Assembly (NCBI GenBank): GCA_905478365.1
Contig: CAJQIK010000150.1
Location: 1 to 36,764, forward strand
Direction of reading: 5' to 3'
DNA: 36,764 nt
Source: an uncultured Burkholderiales Genera incertae sedis bacterium
GTDB taxonomy: Bacteria > Pseudomonadota > Gammaproteobacteria > Burkholderiales > Eutrophovitaceae
Shown here: in pieces, positions 17,573 through 26,376 of the stretch
How the letters are laid out: each line of letters starts with the position of its first letter
Numbering within the stretch: the first letter of the stretch is position 1
Notes under the pieces: generated by a model
What the model was told of the DNA's origin: nothing
The model's database searches: none
The model's input: the letters and a program-made list of their open reading frames with translations, nothing else
Program-made: the position numbers and the translations under genes

Positions 17573-18688
17573 TTATTGGAATTTTTTAACGAATTTTCGA
17601 TCGACATGATCCTTCCATTTCCAAATCCACCGACCACTGGCGCATAAAATATGTTTCGAAGCCACTGCATTTTTATCGCCGGTACTAATTAAGGCAAGCG
17701 AGCTTTTCTGTGGAGTATACGACTGAAGCGGTGCGCCGCTTAACTTACTCCTGATGTTAGCCTCTAGAATACGTGCTTGTTTGATTGCGTAAACCCCAGA
17801 TTTCGGATAAGTCAGACCTTCAATGGAGGCGATGTCTCCAGTGGCGAAGAGGTTATTAATATCTTTTACCTGAAGAAAATTATCTGTCTTTATATACCCA
17901 TCTTCGGTTGTGGGCAGTCCGGATAATTTTGGCCAATGACTCGGGGATGCTCCCGTTGCCCAAATTACAAAGTCTGATGGAATGATTTTTTTTGATCCTG
18001 TTTTTAGGTAATCCTTATTTACTTCAATAACAGGAGCGTTATAGTAAGTCGTTATACCCCGTTGATGAAGAATCCTATGAAACTTTCTTTTCACGGGTAG
18101 TGCGTGAGTCTCCAATATATCGGTTGCCGCTGTTATCAAACATAATTGTAGATTGGTATAACCTCGAGTAGTAGCTTGATATTGTAAAGCCAACAATACC
18201 TCGATACTCGCCGCTCCGCCGCCCACTACAGATATTCTATGAGTAGAATTTTTTGGGGCACGACCAATTCGATCGAGTAAGTTTTGAATATTATTAACCA
18301 AACCTTTAATGGGTTTTACGGGGATAGCGCAGTCTTTAAGTCCGGCTATGGTCTTAGAGTTTGGGGTAGAACCTGTATTAATGGATGCAAGATCGTATTG
18401 ATAAGTCCCACTCTCGGTATGTATTGTTTGCTCATTTGATGAGATTTTTAATACTGTTTGTTGTACGAATTCATAGTCATATTTTCCGCATAATTTTTGG
18501 AGATCAATATGGCATTCGTTAGATTTGTAATGGCCCGAAATTAATCCGGGGACCATTCCTGAGTAAGGTGTGTGTACTTCACTGCTAATTAATATTAATT
18601 TATAATCTTGAGCAAATGAACGCTCACCCAAGCGTTGAATTGTTTCTAAATGGGTGTGTCCACCGCCGATGAGTACGATTTTCTTCAT
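17573..18688 (-). CDS. FAD-dependent NADH-dehydrogenase-like oxidoreductase, TIGR03169 (SelD-partner) type
   Basis: A 371-residue two-dinucleotide-binding-domain flavoprotein. The N-terminal FAD site is IGGGHTHLE (residues 7-15), followed by the diagnostic TPYSGMVPGLISGHYKSNECHIDL. The NAD site is VVGGGAASIEVLL near residue 155, then IWATGASPSHWPKLSGLP and LFATGDIAS. The end GRWIWKWKDHVDRKFVKKFQ matches the domain that in cyanobacteria and others is fused in front of selenophosphate synthetase. No SelD domain or selD gene is present here. It is the last gene of the minus-strand arsenosugar-type cluster, 67 bases beyond the TIGR04282 gene, so it may supply electrons for an arsenic (or selenium) step; that is inference. 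Confidence 0.82.
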   Translation of the reverse strand: MKKIVLIGGGHTHLETIQRLGERSFAQDYKLILISSEVHTPYSGMVPGLISGHYKSNECHIDLQKLCGKYDYEFVQQTVLKISSNEQTIHTESGTYQYDLASINTGSTPNSKTIAGLKDCAIPVKPIKGLVNNIQNLLDRIGRAPKNSTHRISVVGGGAASIEVLLALQYQATTRGYTNLQLCLITAATDILETHALPVKRKFHRILHQRGITTYYNAPVIEVNKDYLKTGSKKIIPSDFVIWATGASPSHWPKLSGLPTTEDGYIKTDNFLQVKDINNLFATGDIASIEGLTYPKSGVYAIKQARILEANIRSKLSGAPLQSYTPQKSSLALISTGDKNAVASKHILCASGRWIWKWKDHVDRKFVKKFQ

Positions 18689-18755: not shown

Positions 18756-19394
18756 TCAAAGACCTCTTGTTAAATGTGGCATGTGCAGTGATAACCGTTT
18801 GTAGTCAACAAATTCATCAACATCCCAGAGCGTGGGTAGTTCTGCCCAAGAATAGTGAAATTTCTTTAAATTCTCTCTGATCTGTGACATCACTAAGTTA
18901 CTGTTCCATGGAACGTTTTGAAAGATTTGAGGTGAGAATAGGACCGATCCGATTAACGCGAAGCCTCCATCCTCTACCGGTATAAATACATAATTATGTT
19001 GATCTAATATAGAAATCGCTCTGACTAAGGTTGCCTCATCGATGACAGGGCAGTCACATCCGACTAGTATGACTTTCTTATATTTTTCTAACCCGTCTGT
19101 TAGAGAGCAACTCATGCGGTCAGCAAGCGATTCACCAATTTGCATTTTAATTTCATGGGCTTGGCTTAAGTTTGCAAGAAAAGGGTGATTAATATCAGGC
19201 GTACACCAAATTTGTACCGCTGGCGCTGCGTGGGTGGCGACTTGGAGAGTATGAAGTGTCATACGCTTATGGAGTTCACACGAGCCTTGTGCACCTAATT
19301 CAGGAATAAGTCTCGTCTTCACCTCTCCCTCGATGGGCGTGCGGGTGAATATCTGTATTAATGTATCCCTGTTTTGCTCAGTTTTGCTCATCAT
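18756..19394 (-). CDS. TIGR04282-family glycosyltransferase-like protein (CofC/DUF2064 type)
   Basis: A 212-residue nucleotidyl/glycosyltransferase-A-fold protein. Family marks are the N-terminal IFTRTPIEGEVKTRLIPELG with the KTRL nucleotide loop, ILVGCDCPVI, PVEDGGFALIG and the C-terminal WDVDEFVDYKRL. In many genomes this family sits next to TIGR04283 and ArsS, and the set is annotated as arsenosugar biosynthesis; the precise reaction is not established. Its start overlaps the stop of the TIGR04283 gene (4-base ATGA, with a second ATG directly following), so the two are translationally coupled and likely work together. Confidence 0.9.
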   Translation of the reverse strand: MMSKTEQNRDTLIQIFTRTPIEGEVKTRLIPELGAQGSCELHKRMTLHTLQVATHAAPAVQIWCTPDINHPFLANLSQAHEIKMQIGESLADRMSCSLTDGLEKYKKVILVGCDCPVIDEATLVRAISILDQHNYVFIPVEDGGFALIGSVLFSPQIFQNVPWNSNLVMSQIRENLKKFHYSWAELPTLWDVDEFVDYKRLSLHMPHLTRGL

Positions 19395-20077
19395 TTTTTG
19401 TTGTACTGCTTATTCAACCAGTTTGGTGACGCACCTAAAAAAAATAATAACCTCAAGGTCCACATTTTAAAAATTGTACGTATTGGTCCATCCTCCTCCC
19501 ACCTTCTGGCCGATGTTTCTAATGGCGTATCACTTATGAATGGTGACTCTGAAGACCTTATTTTTTTTGAAAACTTAACGTCCTCCATCAATGCAATTGA
19601 TGGGAAAAGCCCCTGTTCTATGAAGATATTTTTATGAATAAAAATCCCTTGATCGCCTGTAGCGACAGACGTAATTTTTGACCGGTAGTTCATCATCGAT
19701 TCAATTACGCGAAAAATTATTTTGGTATTACTTAAACGGACGTTGAACCATCCCCACTTTTTATTTTTTAGACCCGATTCAATGATGCTCTCAAAGTCGA
19801 AGTCAACCTTAGAGTCGGCGTGTAAGAACCATAAATATTTCCCCTTGGCATGCCGAGCGCCAGTGTTCATTTGTTGTGCTCGGCCAGGTTCTGAGTGGAG
19901 AATACGATTTTTTTTATGACAGATGACATTCAGGGTGTCGTCTTCGCTGCATCCGTCGACAACGATAACTTCTGTGTTGTCAGACTTTCTTTTTTGTAAT
20001 GCGTTTAGTAAAGAGGGTAGATGACTCGCTTCATTACGAACGGGAATGATTATCGACAATGAGATTTTTTTTTGCAT
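19391..20077 (-). CDS. TIGR04283-family arsenosugar biosynthesis glycosyltransferase
   Basis: A 228-residue GT-A glycosyltransferase (GT2-like). It has SIIIPVRNEASHLPSLLNAL at the N-terminus, VIVVDGCSEDDT, EPGRAQQMNTGARHAKGKYLWFLHADS (metal-binding DxD-like HAD), TGDQGIFIHKNIF and ALMEDVKFSKKIR, all typical of the family that co-occurs with ArsS. A C-terminal hydrophobic segment (MWTLRLLFFLGASPNWL) may tether it to the membrane. It begins 12 bases after the DUF547 stop. The acceptor is unknown; in this setting a dimethylarsinoyl-ribose product is plausible but inferred. Confidence 0.9.
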   Translation of the reverse strand: MQKKISLSIIIPVRNEASHLPSLLNALQKRKSDNTEVIVVDGCSEDDTLNVICHKKNRILHSEPGRAQQMNTGARHAKGKYLWFLHADSKVDFDFESIIESGLKNKKWGWFNVRLSNTKIIFRVIESMMNYRSKITSVATGDQGIFIHKNIFIEQGLFPSIALMEDVKFSKKIRSSESPFISDTPLETSARRWEEDGPIRTIFKMWTLRLLFFLGASPNWLNKQYNKK

Positions 20078-20089
20078 CTAAAGACCGTT

Positions 20090-20911
20090 TTACATTTGGT
20101 CACGTGTATTGAGTGACCAATCGTAGTCGGTGTATTCGATAGCAATATTACTGCGGTTCACTAAATCAAACTTAGTATCCAACGCAAATGAGTAACTCTT
20201 AAGCCATTCGAGTACTGAGCCAGACATTTTTTGGAAGTCAGCCTTGTACCATTTGAATATCGGTGAGACAAATAAAACTCCATTCTTAATAAAGTTGCGA
20301 CTGCTATCCGATAGGAAGCGCAGAGTGCTATCGTGAAGTTGATCCTCAATACGCCAAGGTTGATATGCTTCTGGACGTAGCGCTGGGCAACTAATTGAGG
20401 CGCAGTTGACAACCATATGAATTCGCGGCTCATCGAAACGTCCTTGTTCTCGTATTAACTTATGCTCTATGTAATCCAAGCTGACGATTTTGCCGAGAAG
20501 ATTAAAGCGTTTGTACTTCCAGGGGCTTTTTAAGAATGAACCTAGGTCCTTTATAGAATCTATTGTTTCGTGATGTTGTGAAACCCAGAAGACCGTGTAA
20601 GCGTTATAGGTATTTATTAAAAATGCCAGTTGCTCTTCCATGTTAAAAGATTCAAATTCAAGTTTAGAAACAGCAGCAATTCCCCCTAAGTACTCTGTCA
20701 TGATTTCTTGATCTTCTTTGAAGCCGAAGTAGTTGACTGTGCTGTTGTGACCGCCTTCATTCCAAGTCACATGTTTTTTTAGTAGTGCATCAAATTTACT
20801 GTGAGTATGATCGAAAGCATATGTTATTGAGACAGTGAGAAAACTAAATAATAAAAATAGTAACTGACTAAATTGTTTACGCTGAAAGACTTGGCGAATT
20901 GGATTTGTCAT
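20090..20911 (-). CDS. Exported DUF547 protein
   Basis: A 273-residue protein with an N-terminal signal or anchor (MTNPIRQVFQRKQFSQLLFLLFSFLTVSITYAF). The DUF547 core shows EQLAFLINTYNAYTVFWV, NLLGKIVSLDYIEHKLIR, FDEPRIHMVVNCASISCPALRPEAY and a conserved Cys-Pro-x-Leu. The ORF track starts 69 bases earlier; I choose the ATG ending at 20911 because it overlaps the upstream stop as ATGA, gives a proper signal peptide and avoids a 73-base overlap. The function of DUF547 is not known. It sits between the TVP38-FAD fusion and the glycosyltransferases; an envelope role in the same pathway is inferred. Confidence 0.88.
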   Translation of the reverse strand: MTNPIRQVFQRKQFSQLLFLLFSFLTVSITYAFDHTHSKFDALLKKHVTWNEGGHNSTVNYFGFKEDQEIMTEYLGGIAAVSKLEFESFNMEEQLAFLINTYNAYTVFWVSQHHETIDSIKDLGSFLKSPWKYKRFNLLGKIVSLDYIEHKLIREQGRFDEPRIHMVVNCASISCPALRPEAYQPWRIEDQLHDSTLRFLSDSSRNFIKNGVLFVSPIFKWYKADFQKMSGSVLEWLKSYSFALDTKFDLVNRSNIAIEYTDYDWSLNTRDQM

Positions 20912-23085
20912 TTGCGCATGATGCGGTGATATATTTTTAGGATCTTTAAAATTGTATTGGGAGCATGTTTTCTTTTCCATTCGCCCGCTACATATTTGTT
21001 GGCTTCGGAAAAGGTGGGGTAAATATGAGTAGTCGATAGAATTTTATTTAGTCCGAGTTTGTGTTTCATGGCTAGTACAAACTCAGAAATTATTTCTGAG
21101 GCATTTTCACCGACGATAGTTACTCCAATAAGTTGATCTGAATTCGGACGAGTTAGGACTTTGACAAAGCCATGATCCTCCGAATCTGCAATAGCACGGT
21201 CTAAATCATCGAGTCCGTATACAGTGACCTCGTAGTCTATATTTTGTTTCTTTGCATCGTTCTCGCTTAATCCTACCCGGGCAACTTGTGGGTGAGTAAA
21301 GGTAGCCCATGGGACAGATGAAAAATCGACAGTGAACTTTTTAAAACGACCGAAAAGTGCATTAACCGCCGCATACCAGGCTTGGTGAGCGGCCGCATGG
21401 GTGAATTGCATTCTTCCTGTTACGTCACCGCACGCATATATATTCGGAAATTTGGTTTCAAGAAAATCATTGGTAGGCAAAACCTTATCATTTTGAGAAA
21501 CAGCATCTATATCTTCCAGACCATATCCTAGGATGTTCGCTTGTCTGCCAATCGCAAAAAGGACCTGATCAAAGTTCAGCCTGACTTCGCCGTTAGGGCT
21601 ATCACAGACTAGCGTCTGGACATTTTTCTCTTTTATAAAGCCTTTGGCTCGATGTCTAGTGAGTATTGCTACACCCTCATCCGATAATTGATTGCTGATC
21701 GCCTCTGCAACCTCTATATCTTCTTTCATGAGAATACGATCTGCAGATTCAATTAAAATTACATTCGAACCTAAACGCTGAAATGCTTGGGCTAATTCCG
21801 AGCCGATTGCGCCACCGCCAATAACAATCAATTTTTCTGGCAGGTCGGTTAAGTCCCAGACAGTATCAGATGTAGCATATTTAACTTCGCTGAGATTTGG
21901 TAAAGGCGGCACTATAGGTCTTGCTCCAGCCGCAATAATGATTGAGCGAGCACTAATCTCTTGCTGCCCATCTGGTCCGTCGTACGAGACTACCCACGGT
22001 GATACCACTCTTGCATTACCCTGAAGGCAGGTTACTCCTAACTCCGTATACCGCTCTATTGAATCATGGGGCTCTATTTTTTTTATAATTCGGTGTACTC
22101 GTCTCATTATTTCTGAGAATTCAAAGGTGATCTCGGCCTTATGAATGCCTAATCGTTTGGATTGTCTAGCCTCTTCAACGAAGTGTGCGGTTTTAATGAG
22201 TGCCTTTGAAGGGACGCATCCGGTATTGAGGCAATCACCTCCCATTTTATGTTTTTCGATGAGAGCAACTTTCGCATTTACAGCCGTGCCAATGTATGAG
22301 GATACAAGTCCAGCCGCACCTGCCCCAATAACTATAATGTTGTAATCAAATTTTTTGGGTTTCGGCCAGTTAGCGTAGACCCTTCGTCTACTAATGAGAT
22401 CTGATACTAATTTTGCGACTATTGGAAATATACCGATGATGCAAAGCGAAATAACTAGATTTGCAGATAAGATATCTCCCGTTGAATTCAGATTGGCCAG
22501 CTGAGTTCCGGCGTTCACAAATATGATTGTTCCAAGAAGCATACCAATCTGACTCGCGATATAAAATGTATGCGTCTTGATTGGCGTCAGTGCCATCAGT
22601 ACATTAATCGCAAAGAATGGAAAAATAGGAACTAATCTGAGCGTTAAGAGATAAAATGCCCCATCTTTCTTAATGCCATCATTGATAGTTCTTAATTTGT
22701 CACCGAAGCGGGCCCTCACAGAGTTACGAAAAAAATAGCGGGTAATTAAAAAAGCAACTGTCGCTCCAATAGTCGAGGAAAATGATACGAGAACTGTACC
22801 CCAAAATAATCCAAATATAGCTCCTCCAGCGATTGTCAAGATTATGGCGCCTGGAATCGACAGGGCGGCAGCTAAGATATATATAGATACATATATTAGG
22901 CTCGATTCAATTGGGTGGTCTTCAAAAAAAATCTGTAATTCCGAGTAATTTTCCTTTAGGGATTGAAGATTTAATTGTGCTAACAAATTGAGAACGTTGT
23001 CACGGAATAAAGTAAATGATATGAGAACTATTGCAAAGGCAATGATTACGCTAATCCATTTTTTTTGAAGTTTCGTAATTTTCAT
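20908..23085 (-). CDS. TVP38/TMEM64 membrane domain fused to FAD-dependent disulfide oxidoreductase
   Basis: A 725-residue fusion. Residues 1-235 form a SNARE-associated/DedA-like (TVP38/TMEM64) membrane domain with about six hydrophobic segments (LSIPGAIILTIAGGAIFG, LTLRLVPIFPFFAIN). Residues 247-725 are a mercuric-reductase/lipoamide-dehydrogenase-type flavoprotein: the FAD site is VIGAGAAGL, the redox disulfide is Cys285/Cys290 in GGDCLNTGCVPSKAL, the NAD site is VIGGGAIGSELAQAF, then YACGDVTG and the C-terminal HIYPTFSE with the His/Glu base pair. The mercuric-reductase C-terminal CC and N-terminal HMA domain are absent, so mercury reduction is unlikely. The next start overlaps its stop by four bases. 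An arsenic-linked or membrane-thiol redox role is inferred from the neighbours. Confidence 0.9.
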   Translation of the reverse strand: MKITKLQKKWISVIIAFAIVLISFTLFRDNVLNLLAQLNLQSLKENYSELQIFFEDHPIESSLIYVSIYILAAALSIPGAIILTIAGGAIFGLFWGTVLVSFSSTIGATVAFLITRYFFRNSVRARFGDKLRTINDGIKKDGAFYLLTLRLVPIFPFFAINVLMALTPIKTHTFYIASQIGMLLGTIIFVNAGTQLANLNSTGDILSANLVISLCIIGIFPIVAKLVSDLISRRRVYANWPKPKKFDYNIIVIGAGAAGLVSSYIGTAVNAKVALIEKHKMGGDCLNTGCVPSKALIKTAHFVEEARQSKRLGIHKAEITFEFSEIMRRVHRIIKKIEPHDSIERYTELGVTCLQGNARVVSPWVVSYDGPDGQQEISARSIIIAAGARPIVPPLPNLSEVKYATSDTVWDLTDLPEKLIVIGGGAIGSELAQAFQRLGSNVILIESADRILMKEDIEVAEAISNQLSDEGVAILTRHRAKGFIKEKNVQTLVCDSPNGEVRLNFDQVLFAIGRQANILGYGLEDIDAVSQNDKVLPTNDFLETKFPNIYACGDVTGRMQFTHAAAHQAWYAAVNALFGRFKKFTVDFSSVPWATFTHPQVARVGLSENDAKKQNIDYEVTVYGLDDLDRAIADSEDHGFVKVLTRPNSDQLIGVTIVGENASEIISEFVLAMKHKLGLNKILSTTHIYPTFSEANKYVAGEWKRKHAPNTILKILKIYHRIMRK

Positions 23086-23186
23086 ATTTTAGACTTTGTT
23101 ATAAACAGGGTCTTTATAAGCAGTTTATCGTTGAATGCAATCTTCATTCTATTCGAACCAAGGCTACATGGACATCTTTGAATATT

Positions 23187-23217
23187 TCTTTTAGGGGGAT
23201 TTTAAGTCCCCGAAAGA
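23187..23217 (-). other. Hairpin between arsS and the TVP38-FAD gene
   Basis: An inverted repeat in the 157-base gap: GGGGA/TCCCC around a 7-base loop, extended past a small internal loop by TCTTT/AAAGA. It has no T-run directly after it on the minus strand, so it may be a partial terminator, a processing site or an mRNA-stabilising structure that sets the ratio of arsS to downstream message. Confidence 0.35.
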
Positions 23218-23242
23218 TACGCTTTTGAGGCGTTATCGGACG

Positions 23243-24202
23243 TTACTGTAAAGCCCCGCTGCAGCTTGAGCCGCGTCCGGCTGTACAGCCAAAGCAATGA
23301 TCCCTGACAGCAATTGACTTACCCTCTATTTGATTTGTATTTAAGTCTCGGATATGAGTTTTACGCCTTAAGTTACCGAACGGGAGACCAAGCATTTGAT
23401 TAAAATCACAATCAAACAGATAACCTTCCCAATCAATCGAAATTAATGTCTTGCACATGACGGAGTTAAGATTTTCCTCGCTATAGTTATCCTTTAACAA
23501 TTGCATGTAGTTTTCAAATTCGCCACGGCTTACCAAGGTGCTCCCAAACCGCTTAATAGGCATATTAGTAATTGTGAGCAGCACATCAAACTGCACACCA
23601 TAGGTTTTGGCTAAATATTCCTTGTACTCAATCTCTAGTGTCTCTTGGGGTGGAGGCAGAAATGCCCCTAGAGGGTTATAAACTAAATGTAGTTGAAGAT
23701 CTGGATTGGAATGTCCATAGCCTACCTCATTGAGTAGGCGTAATCCGTTAATACTTTTTTTGAATACGCCATCCCCCCTCTGAGAATTAACGTTATCTTC
23801 CGTATAGCAGGGCAGAGAAGCAGTGACGATTACCTGATGTTGGGCGAGAAACTTGTGTAGATCTTCTTGGCCATGCTCGAATAAGATTGTTAAATTGCAT
23901 CTGTCAATCACTGCGATTCCTCGATCTCGTATCTCAGAGACGAGTTCACGAAAGTGAGGGTTCAATTCTGGAGCACCACCAGTCAGGTCAACTACTGCAG
24001 GTTTGACCTTATCAATGAATTGAATCACCTGCCTGATGGTATCGATTGACATTTGCTCTTTGCGGTCTGGGCTGGCATTGACGTGGCAGTGAAAGCAAGC
24101 TTGATTACATCGATAACCGAGGTTGATCTGAACGGTTTTGACCTCTTCCCTGTTAATGGGTGGGAACTCTCGGTTATTAAGAAGTGATAATGTGTCGTGC
24201 AT
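23243..24202 (-). CDS. arsS: Arsenosugar biosynthesis radical SAM protein ArsS
   Basis: A 319-residue radical SAM enzyme. The [4Fe-4S] motif CNQACFHC (Cys32, Cys36, Cys39) is followed by VDLTGGAPELNPHFRELV, the ArsS-typical VIDRCNLTIL and HLVYNPLGAFLPPPQ, and the C-terminal cysteine-rich region SIDWEGYLFDCDFNQMLG and CFGCTAGRGSSCSG. ArsS is known to join a 5'-deoxyadenosyl unit from SAM to dimethylarsenic, giving the precursor of oxo-arsenosugars. The substrate is normally made by the methyltransferase ArsM, which is not in this window. It is the first gene of the cluster, transcribed away from the SRPBCC gene at 24289. The full-length, intact motifs and matching partners make the call strong. 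Confidence 0.93.
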   Translation of the reverse strand: MHDTLSLLNNREFPPINREEVKTVQINLGYRCNQACFHCHVNASPDRKEQMSIDTIRQVIQFIDKVKPAVVDLTGGAPELNPHFRELVSEIRDRGIAVIDRCNLTILFEHGQEDLHKFLAQHQVIVTASLPCYTEDNVNSQRGDGVFKKSINGLRLLNEVGYGHSNPDLQLHLVYNPLGAFLPPPQETLEIEYKEYLAKTYGVQFDVLLTITNMPIKRFGSTLVSRGEFENYMQLLKDNYSEENLNSVMCKTLISIDWEGYLFDCDFNQMLGLPFGNLRRKTHIRDLNTNQIEGKSIAVRDHCFGCTAGRGSSCSGALQ

Positions 24203-24288
24203 AGATTACTGTTTTAGTACCTGGTTGTAATGTTTGATGTTAACAAAATTTAGTACTACCTATTTATCGATTATTTGTGGGTCTTTAT

Positions 24289-24885
24289 ATGAAAAATAAT
24301 AAACAATTGATATTGATTTTATTCTCTTTTACATGTTTTGCGACAAGCCCCGTAACTACTTGGAGTGAGGATGATGGACTGCGAGTCGATTCCTCAATCG
24401 ATAATGGTGTCGTCTACGTTGAGGTTGAAAGCTTAATCGAGGCGCCGCACGAACTGATATGGGAGGTTTTGACAGATTACAATCGATTGGCAGAGTATAT
24501 TCCAGGGATGCATTCGAGCCGACTATTGCGCTATGAGGGACAAACTGCGTTTGTGGAGCAACACGGAGTATCAGAGCTTCTTTTCTTTAAGATCCCAATT
24601 GATGTTGTCGTTAAAACTATAGAATTTAAGCCTTATTCTATTTCTATTGAATTGGTATCGGGAAATCTTGACTATTTATCGGGCGGGTATCACTTGACTC
24701 AGATCGGGGATGAGGACCTGTGGGTTTTGTCATGGTCAGGTTTCTTGGATCCATCATTACCCATTCCTAATTTTATAGCGGAGCGATTCATCCGAAATAA
24801 TATTAAGAGCCAATTTTTGGGAATTATTTCTCAGATTGAAAAGGAGAAGAGGAGGTCAGGAAATTATGCTGAGAGTGAGAATTAA
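24289..24885 (+). CDS. Secreted SRPBCC (START/cyclase-dehydrase-like) protein
   Basis: A 198-residue protein with a Sec signal (MKNNKQLILILFSFTCFATSPVTTWS). The mature part has the Bet v1/START-type ligand-binding pattern: VYVEVESLIEAPHELIWEVLTDYNRLAEYIPGMHSSRLLR, then alternating strands and a long C-terminal helix (FIAERFIRNNIKSQFLGIISQIEKEK). The ORF track uses a GTG at 24277; the ATG at 24289 gives a cleaner signal peptide and is preferred, though neither has a strong ribosome binding site. The stop is followed immediately by the ATG of the lipoprotein gene, so the pair is co-expressed. A hydrophobic-ligand carrier in the periplasm is likely. Confidence 0.83.
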   Translation: MKNNKQLILILFSFTCFATSPVTTWSEDDGLRVDSSIDNGVVYVEVESLIEAPHELIWEVLTDYNRLAEYIPGMHSSRLLRYEGQTAFVEQHGVSELLFFKIPIDVVVKTIEFKPYSISIELVSGNLDYLSGGYHLTQIGDEDLWVLSWSGFLDPSLPIPNFIAERFIRNNIKSQFLGIISQIEKEKRRSGNYAESEN

Positions 24886-26376
24886 ATGCTGATAGGTCTG
24901 CGGTTCGTGTTTGTTGTGAGTTTAATCGTCCTGATGACCGGTTGTGCGACGCAAAGAACATCACATCTGGATTTTGAAGATCAATCCTCTGTTGAACTAT
25001 CGCTAGATTTTTGTCGTAATTGGTCGGAACAACTTGATGTCGTTATTGCGCAATATGAAGCTCGCGATTTTGGAGCTACTAAAGTTAAAGATTATGTTTA
25101 TCTACGAGCTGATCGATTTCTTGCCGCTTTTTCGGACTTAGTTTATGACGATCCAAACCTTTTTCGCGCGTGGGTTTCGGCTATGGTTGATCTCGACCAG
25201 GAGAGTCGTCAAATTGAAGTCAATAATTTGAATGAGGCCGCACTTCGATTGCTAGGTAAGGACCGGTTAACGATTAAGGATGTTACTAAGCGGTGCTCCG
25301 TTTTTTTTAAAGAGCATTATTTAGAAGAACCATTTGATGATCTTGAAAAGTTGACCTCGGTTGTGTTTATTCCCGATGACTATAGCAGCGCTAAAAGAGC
25401 GTTGGGTCTATATCCGTTGTTGAAAATCCCGTTCATTAAAGGTATCAAAGAGTGGCATAAGCAAGCGAGGGATACATTTGAGCGATATGCGCAAAAGGAT
25501 GTCAAAGTAGTTTCTACAAGGCAATACGAACCTACTAAGAAAAATATATTTCGGCCGCAAGAGGTGGCTCGGTTAATGAGTCAGCGTGATGCGCTTGGTC
25601 AGTTAACTTTGAGCCCGGATCTTCTATCGAGATTATTTGTTACATATGCCCCTATATTTACGATCGAGGACTCAGGTGAATTTGATAGGGTTGGCGCGGT
25701 AGATTTTACAAAAGAAGGCGCTGTGACGGTTAACGTCTTGGAGCCCACCGTTTATACCCATTTGACTCACACTCGGTTTGAGGGCAGGACACTGCCGCAG
25801 CTTGTTTATGTCGCTTGGTTCTTAGCAAGGCCTAAAGAGGGAGTGGGTGATCTCCTTGGCGGTAATTTAGACGGCATTATATGGCGCGTGACATTAGATC
25901 ACGACGGAACGCCATTACTTTTCGATTCGATCCACCCATGCGGTTGTTACCACATGTTTTTCCCGACCGATCGCTTAGTACCAAATGCTGCGCCCAGTGA
26001 GTTCGTTGAGTGGGCTTTCTCGCCCAAGCAATTAAATGAGATTGAAACGGGTATGACGGTCAATATTACAGTCCAAACAAAAACACATTATTTAGCTGGA
26101 GTGACCTTAGATAACTTTAGGCAAGAGGCACAACAATATTCTTTGAGAGCTTATGATGAGCTTCGCTCCATTGAGACCTCTCAGGGGCGAAGAAATTTAT
26201 TTGGCGTTAACGGTATCGTTTCTGGATCTGAGAGAGGCGAACGCTATCTGTTGTGGCCTTCGGGTATCGAGAGTCCGGGCGCCATGCGTCAATGGGGTCG
26301 ACACGCCACTGCATTTGTCGGACGCCGTCATTTTGATGATGTTGATTTATTAGACAAATATTATATACGTCGCTAG
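24886..26376 (+). CDS. Large unrecognised lipoprotein
   Basis: A 496-residue protein I cannot assign. MLIGLRFVFVVSLIVLMTGC is a lipoprotein signal with lipobox LMTGC, making Cys20 the lipidated residue. Asp is absent at +2 (ATQ follows), so outer-membrane sorting is expected. Visible features are a helical first third, a VFIPDDYSSAKRALGLYPLLKIPFIKGIKEWH segment, YVAWFLARPKEGVGDLLGGNLDGIIWRVTLDHDGTPLLFDSIHPCGCYHMFFPTD with a possible metal-binding HPCGCYH, and a C-terminal RHATAFVGRRHFDDVDLLDKYY. It directly abuts the secreted SRPBCC gene (zero-base gap), suggesting that both act in one periplasmic or outer-membrane process. ATG at 24886 is the natural start. Confidence 0.82.
   Translation: MLIGLRFVFVVSLIVLMTGCATQRTSHLDFEDQSSVELSLDFCRNWSEQLDVVIAQYEARDFGATKVKDYVYLRADRFLAAFSDLVYDDPNLFRAWVSAMVDLDQESRQIEVNNLNEAALRLLGKDRLTIKDVTKRCSVFFKEHYLEEPFDDLEKLTSVVFIPDDYSSAKRALGLYPLLKIPFIKGIKEWHKQARDTFERYAQKDVKVVSTRQYEPTKKNIFRPQEVARLMSQRDALGQLTLSPDLLSRLFVTYAPIFTIEDSGEFDRVGAVDFTKEGAVTVNVLEPTVYTHLTHTRFEGRTLPQLVYVAWFLARPKEGVGDLLGGNLDGIIWRVTLDHDGTPLLFDSIHPCGCYHMFFPTDRLVPNAAPSEFVEWAFSPKQLNEIETGMTVNITVQTKTHYLAGVTLDNFRQEAQQYSLRAYDELRSIETSQGRRNLFGVNGIVSGSERGERYLLWPSGIESPGAMRQWGRHATAFVGRRHFDDVDLLDKYYIRR

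Follow-up and report, generated by a model that had tools for sequence, protein, structure and literature searches.

The window, i.e. the whole stretch of 36,764 nucleotides analysed here, carries on its minus strand a gene (20908..23085) for a 725-residue fusion of a TVP38/TMEM64 (VTT) membrane domain with a pyridine-nucleotide disulfide oxidoreductase. The gene belongs to a cluster on the same strand: directly upstream of it lies the gene of an ArsS-type radical SAM protein (23243..24202; TIGR04167, 447.6 bits against a cut-off of 300), and downstream follow a DUF547 protein of 273 residues recognised by Pfam (20090..20911), a TIGR04283 glycosyltransferase (19391..20077) and a TIGR04282 CofC-like transferase (18756..19394), both arsenosugar biosynthesis-associated NCBIfam families, and a TIGR03169 Nterm_to_SelD pyridine nucleotide-disulfide oxidoreductase family protein (NCBIfam, 17573..18688). 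The start codon of DUF547 at 20911 overlaps the stop codon of the fusion (ATGA), and the start of TIGR04282 overlaps the TIGR04283 stop by 4 bases. An arsenosugar-type cluster was recognised by ArsS over its cut-off together with TIGR04283 and TIGR04282, and all three are found here. The fusion of Acinetobacter portensis has the same neighbours, namely ArsS, DUF547, TIGR04283 and TIGR04282.

The 157 bp gap between ArsS and the fusion (23086-23242) contains a block conserved in five congeners, with GGTTCGAATAGAAT as its core (23146..23159, minus strand), which is perhaps a promoter or a regulator site. DUF547 begins with an export signal and is therefore expected outside the membrane, on the face opposite to the flavin; its His165, Cys170 and Cys175-Pro176 are invariant among the aligned homologs. 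The AlphaFold model of DUF547 reached a mean pLDDT of 92 and found no counterpart in the PDB at E below 1, thus the fold is without a solved relative by that search; rows from plasmid records were left out of the alignments used for folding. Divergently from ArsS, a START-like gene (Polyketide_cyc) and a gene for 496 amino acids, the latter lacking any Pfam or NCBIfam match, occupy 24277-26376, and their position is kept in three congeners. PADLOC gave no hit, and a defence system was rejected on this ground.

Architecture and active site of the fusion protein

The original prediction of a single 725-residue frame joining a DedA-superfamily domain to a disulfide reductase is borne out, since the translation has no internal stop and the Pfam domains score over their cut-offs. 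The membrane half is N-terminal, with a VTT domain of the COG0398 type delimited by Pfam and conservation (residues 77-194, 22504..22857, minus strand; 76.9 bits against a cut-off of 33.9). It is followed in the same chain by the FAD/NAD(H) disulfide oxidoreductase with its dimerisation domain, recognised by Pfam and by fold (residues 248-697, 20995..22344, minus strand), in which Pyr_redox_2 covers residues 248-569 (190.9 bits) and Pyr_redox_dim residues 591-697 (104.5 bits). The active site reads GGDCLNTGCVPSK, with the redox-active Cys285-x4-Cys290 (22216..22233, minus strand), and the C-terminal motif HIYPTFSE contains the acid-base dyad from His687 to Glu694 (21004..21027, minus strand); the fusion therefore has both the CxxxxC and the HxxPTxxE dyad of Lpd/GR-type flavin disulfide reductases. 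Cys285, Cys290, His687 and Glu694 do not vary across 73 aligned fusions. Inspection of the C-terminus, ending in ...HAPNTILKILKIYHRIMRK, revealed no terminal Cys pair, and an HMA domain is absent from the 725 residues, in agreement with what had been claimed from the sequence. Additionally, the beta strand of the NAD site ends in a Glu (Glu446) in 60 of the 73 fusions; a Glu at this position is a mark of the NADH-dependent enzymes of this fold.

The AlphaFold2 model of the fusion (mean pLDDT 80) shows a membrane half made of helices, followed by the oxidoreductase half, which matches best in Foldseek to lipoamide dehydrogenases and MerA, with E values down to 5e-40 and target-normalised TM scores of 0.86-0.90. 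The confidence falls near residues 630-635 and 686-691; the second stretch lies at the His687 motif, where the lack of the partner subunit in the model may be the cause.

In the membrane half there is no Asp or Glu in the first re-entrant segment (71-92) and R150 is present, while by our own reading of the motif Pro156 presumably occupies the second basic position of the known DedA motif. The fusion thus lacks an acidic residue in the first re-entrant helix and a basic residue in the second. According to Todor et al. 2023 (PMC10127716), COG0398 DedA proteins have no acidic residues in the first of these helices and lack one or both basic residues in the second. The same paper presents phospholipid scrambling as shown in eukaryotic relatives and as merely proposed for bacterial COG0398 proteins, so the suggested family tie to lipid scrambling holds for the former and is a proposal for the latter. 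The sole Cys of the membrane half, Cys215, is kept in 40% of the aligned sequences. With no conserved Cys in this half, thiols are unlikely to relay electrons through the membrane, and that candidate was dropped; the earlier idea that a membrane disulfide is reduced is likewise improbable in its across-membrane version, since the exported DUF547 would also be placed opposite to the flavin.

Spread of the fusion and its enzyme class

Full-length fusions with 77-88% identity were found in congeners, and more distant full fusions or homologs (46-57% identity) in Pseudomonadota, Thermodesulfobacteriota, Bdellovibrionota, Myxococcota, Campylobacterota, Spirochaetota and Fidelibacterota. A chimeric contig, which had been raised as a possible origin of the fusion, is therefore ruled out. 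In MAG UBA3031 the fusion gene is present as two overlapping frames (L023, 9001-11269) with a break near residue 500, which is a frameshift either in the gene or in the assembly. The architecture is already known: the RefSeq family 'bifunctional TVP38/TMEM64 family protein/FAD-dependent oxidoreductase', to which the A. portensis protein belongs, aligns over 90-94% of the query at 50-54% identity, with the identical two domains in identical order and no qualitative difference, its name carrying no assigned function. Furthermore, Todor et al. 2023 (PMC10127716) name PF07992 and PF02852, the domains seen here, as those to which COG0398 DedA proteins are most often fused; in contrast to the context described here, ArsS, DUF547 and a substrate find no mention in the available text of that paper. 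No experimental function or study of the fusion was found in the open-access literature. It should be emphasized that the new element of the present analysis is the ArsS-cluster context.

The phylogeny of fused and split versions, which had been proposed as a check, showed that in most members of the clade the oxidoreductase half is fused. Several Bdellovibrionota and the loci L045 and L088 have the two halves as neighbouring separate genes; in the trees these are nested among the fused forms and are thus probably secondary splits. Four further loci (L101, L102, L103, L105) form a separate group of unfused flavoproteins beside TVP38 genes. The two halves are repeatedly associated, whether joined or not, which supports a functional link between them.

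None of the NCBIfam oxidoreductase models reaches its own curated cut-off on the fusion. The top model was NF004991, the FAD-containing oxidoreductase PRK06370 (469 bits, cut-off 620); lipoamide dehydrogenase TIGR01350 gave 390.7 bits (cut-off 408.8) and MerA TIGR02053 364.5 bits (cut-off 454.45). With MerA the fusion has in common the fold and the CxxxxC active site; it differs in the missing C-terminal CC and HMA, in the retained His of HxxPTxxE and in the membrane domain. Dihydrolipoyl dehydrogenase is similar in fold, CxxxxC, HxxPTxxE and the Glu at the NAD site, but the fusion has a membrane domain, does not stand beside dehydrogenase complexes and, in the trees of the oxidoreductase half, its fused and split forms are set apart from the lipoamide dehydrogenases with an SH-aLRT support of 100%. 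Two other genes of the host genome, at 510 and 537 bits, exceed the E3 cut-off, making an E3 role for the fusion superfluous. The assignment to neither MerA nor the ordinary lipoamide dehydrogenases was accordingly correct. As regards the NF004991 type, several of the unfused flavoprotein relatives inspected have Ala where the fusions keep His687, therefore the fused clade looks like a true disulfide-reductase type. In the unfused flavoproteins of L133, L136, L101 and L105 APYPT replaces HxYPT, with loss of the catalytic His, and two of these four adjoin ArsS.

Association with ArsS and the arsenic question

ArsS was detected over its cut-off in 21 of 41 relatives, and all 21 have the fusion, the split pair, or parts of the fusion lying at contig ends or around a frame break; of the 20 ArsS-negative relatives a single one, G031, has it (Fisher p = 8e-11 for the co-occurrence in the 41 relatives, with shared ancestry ignored). 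In a phylum sample of 299 genomes, all 11 ArsS-positive genomes of Gammaproteobacteria contain the fusion, 19 of the 30 fusion-bearing Gammaproteobacteria have no ArsS, and outside this class many ArsS-positive genomes are without the fusion. At the ArsS loci of the latter genomes an unfused flavoprotein may adjoin ArsS (L133, L136) or lie nearby (L124, L139), or an unfused TVP38 adjoins it (L131, L135); 14 of 20 such loci inspected have neither of the two. In L103 and L088 ArsS stands beside the flavoprotein and TVP38 as separate genes. Within 6 kb of 87 loci of the fused clade, a convenience sample partly chosen by us, DUF547 was found in 40, TIGR04283 in 30, TIGR04282 in 25, ArsS in 24, TIGR03169 in 22, and ynjB or ynjF in 16. 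The co-occurrence with ArsS suggests that the fusion is a reductase of the ArsS pathway, and together with the neighbourhood it marks the fusion as a concrete candidate for what supplies reductant to a pathway of the arsenosugar type.

A review (PMC12159101, citing Cheng et al. 2021) describes ArsS as responsible for arsenic adenosylation in arsenosugar synthesis. The host genome, represented by an assembly that is 94.7% complete, was searched for ArsM with NF008823 and with an ArsM protein of the cluster type as queries, and no ArsM was found over the cut-off (best NF008823 score 46.6 against 263 bits); the cluster-type ArsM is absent from it as well and was present in 3 of the 41 relatives. 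TIGR04345 was rejected as an ArsM model because it is the model of OvoA. ArsS is expected to require trivalent dimethylarsenic. As no ArsM was recognised in the host and the cluster type occurs in few relatives, 'arsenosugar' is here a family label resting on names, and methylated arsenic is then imported by these bacteria, or else the substrate of ArsS is a different one in them; the occurrence of ArsS in bacteria without a recognisable ArsM raises the question of its role there. The arsenical substrate that had been suggested for the fusion is thus favoured by the position of the gene in an ArsS cluster and by the co-occurrence with ArsS, and weakened by a genome without recognisable ArsM. 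An MTAP-type purine-nucleoside phosphorylase gene was observed near TIGR04283/TIGR04282 in L069, L072, L016, L088 and L107, in all but L072 also near ArsS, and it is plausible that it serves the next step after adenosylation.

Possible roles of the fusion and its second operon context

The reading we prefer, to which we give about an even chance, is that the fusion is a disulfide reductase of the Lpd/GR/MerA fold, anchored in the inner membrane, probably NADH-dependent and accessory to an ArsS-type (arsenosugar-like) pathway. In the cycle that we infer, NADH would reduce the FAD, and FADH2 the Cys285-Cys290 disulfide, after which the Cys285 thiolate, together with His687 and Glu694 from the other subunit of a dimer, could reduce a cytosolic disulfide or a thiol-bound substrate. 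In the operon this would most likely serve to hold a thiol partner in the reduced state, or else the substrate of ArsS, be it a trivalent arsenical or the adduct of one with a thiol. The TVP38 half would anchor the enzyme at the membrane, and it may handle a lipid or an exported product.

The fusion could also be a general membrane-tethered electron supplier, Lpd-like in its action, that reduces a lipoyl group or an AhpD- or peroxiredoxin-like thiol protein, with arsenic being incidental; we consider this unlikely, though credible. The lipoamide dehydrogenase score just under its cut-off and the intact HxxPTxxE are in line with it, as are genes of the AhpD, thioredoxin or peroxiredoxin type that lie close to several copies of the fusion and the fact that Gammaproteobacteria have the fusion more often than ArsS. 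An AhpD-like gene is, however, absent from the present operon, the genome has two true E3s, and the close co-occurrence with ArsS among the relatives also speaks against it.

More doubtful is the idea that the main activity resides in the membrane half, which would scramble lipids or carry a small molecule and be regulated or energised by the flavoprotein half, for example in making arsenosugar phospholipids. R116, R150, P153, N161, S178 and M182 of this half are invariant or nearly so in the aligned fusions, and genes for a CDP-alcohol phosphatidyltransferase, a fatty-acid hydroxylase and glycosyltransferases are found near homologs; against this, the present operon has no lipid enzyme, the unfused flavoproteins of L133 and L136 stand beside ArsS without TVP38, and bacterial scrambling by COG0398 proteins is at the stage of a proposal in the text cited above. 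Doubtful too, and in our estimate still less probable, is a redox-coupled DedA protein, in which flavin redox chemistry would be joined directly to a lipid or solute mover of the DedA type: the TVP38 half would present or move an organoarsenical or arseno-lipid in the membrane, and the reductase would reduce it at the cytosolic face.

That the fusion reduces quinones or metal ions at the membrane is quite improbable: the membrane attachment, MerA among the nearest folds and metal-related genes near some plasmid copies might point in this direction, but the fusion stays under the MerA cut-off, has neither the C-terminal CC nor HMA, keeps His687, and a known quinone-site feature was not identified in it. 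An ordinary lipoamide dehydrogenase, to which the fold and active site would correspond, can practically be dismissed in view of the sub-threshold E3 score, the fully supported separate clade and the two true E3s of the genome, and so can an artefact of the contig, given the full-length fusions in many genomes.

The preferred role in an ArsS-type pathway would apply to one of the settings of the fusion. Arsenic is not its only setting, as shown by the fusion-bearing Gammaproteobacteria without ArsS and by a second operon, found in Alteromonadales and others, in which a TonB receptor, the fusion, DUF547, an ABC transporter (substrate-binding protein NF008633, permease and ATPase), a CDP-alcohol phosphatidyltransferase and a fatty-acid hydroxylase follow in that order. 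The transporter and transferase proteins are related to YnjB, YnjD and YnjF of E. coli at about 40-58% identity and to YnjC at about 30%, and this TonB receptor-fusion-DUF547-ynjBCD-ynjF-fatty acid hydroxylase type was recognised in L070, L084, L091, L094, L096 and L108, in L091 without the TonB receptor gene. ArsS and ynj genes were never found together among the 87 loci. The ydjX-ydjY-ydjZ-ynjABCDEF locus of E. coli is similar in that it has two DedA genes and that relatives of its ynjB, ynjC, ynjD and ynjF accompany the fusion elsewhere, and through this context a part of the question of the fusion becomes approachable in E. coli K-12. The E. coli locus differs in that its DedA genes, ydjX and ydjZ, are unfused, with ydjY, the gene of a 4Fe-4S protein, between them, and that it contains no ArsS.
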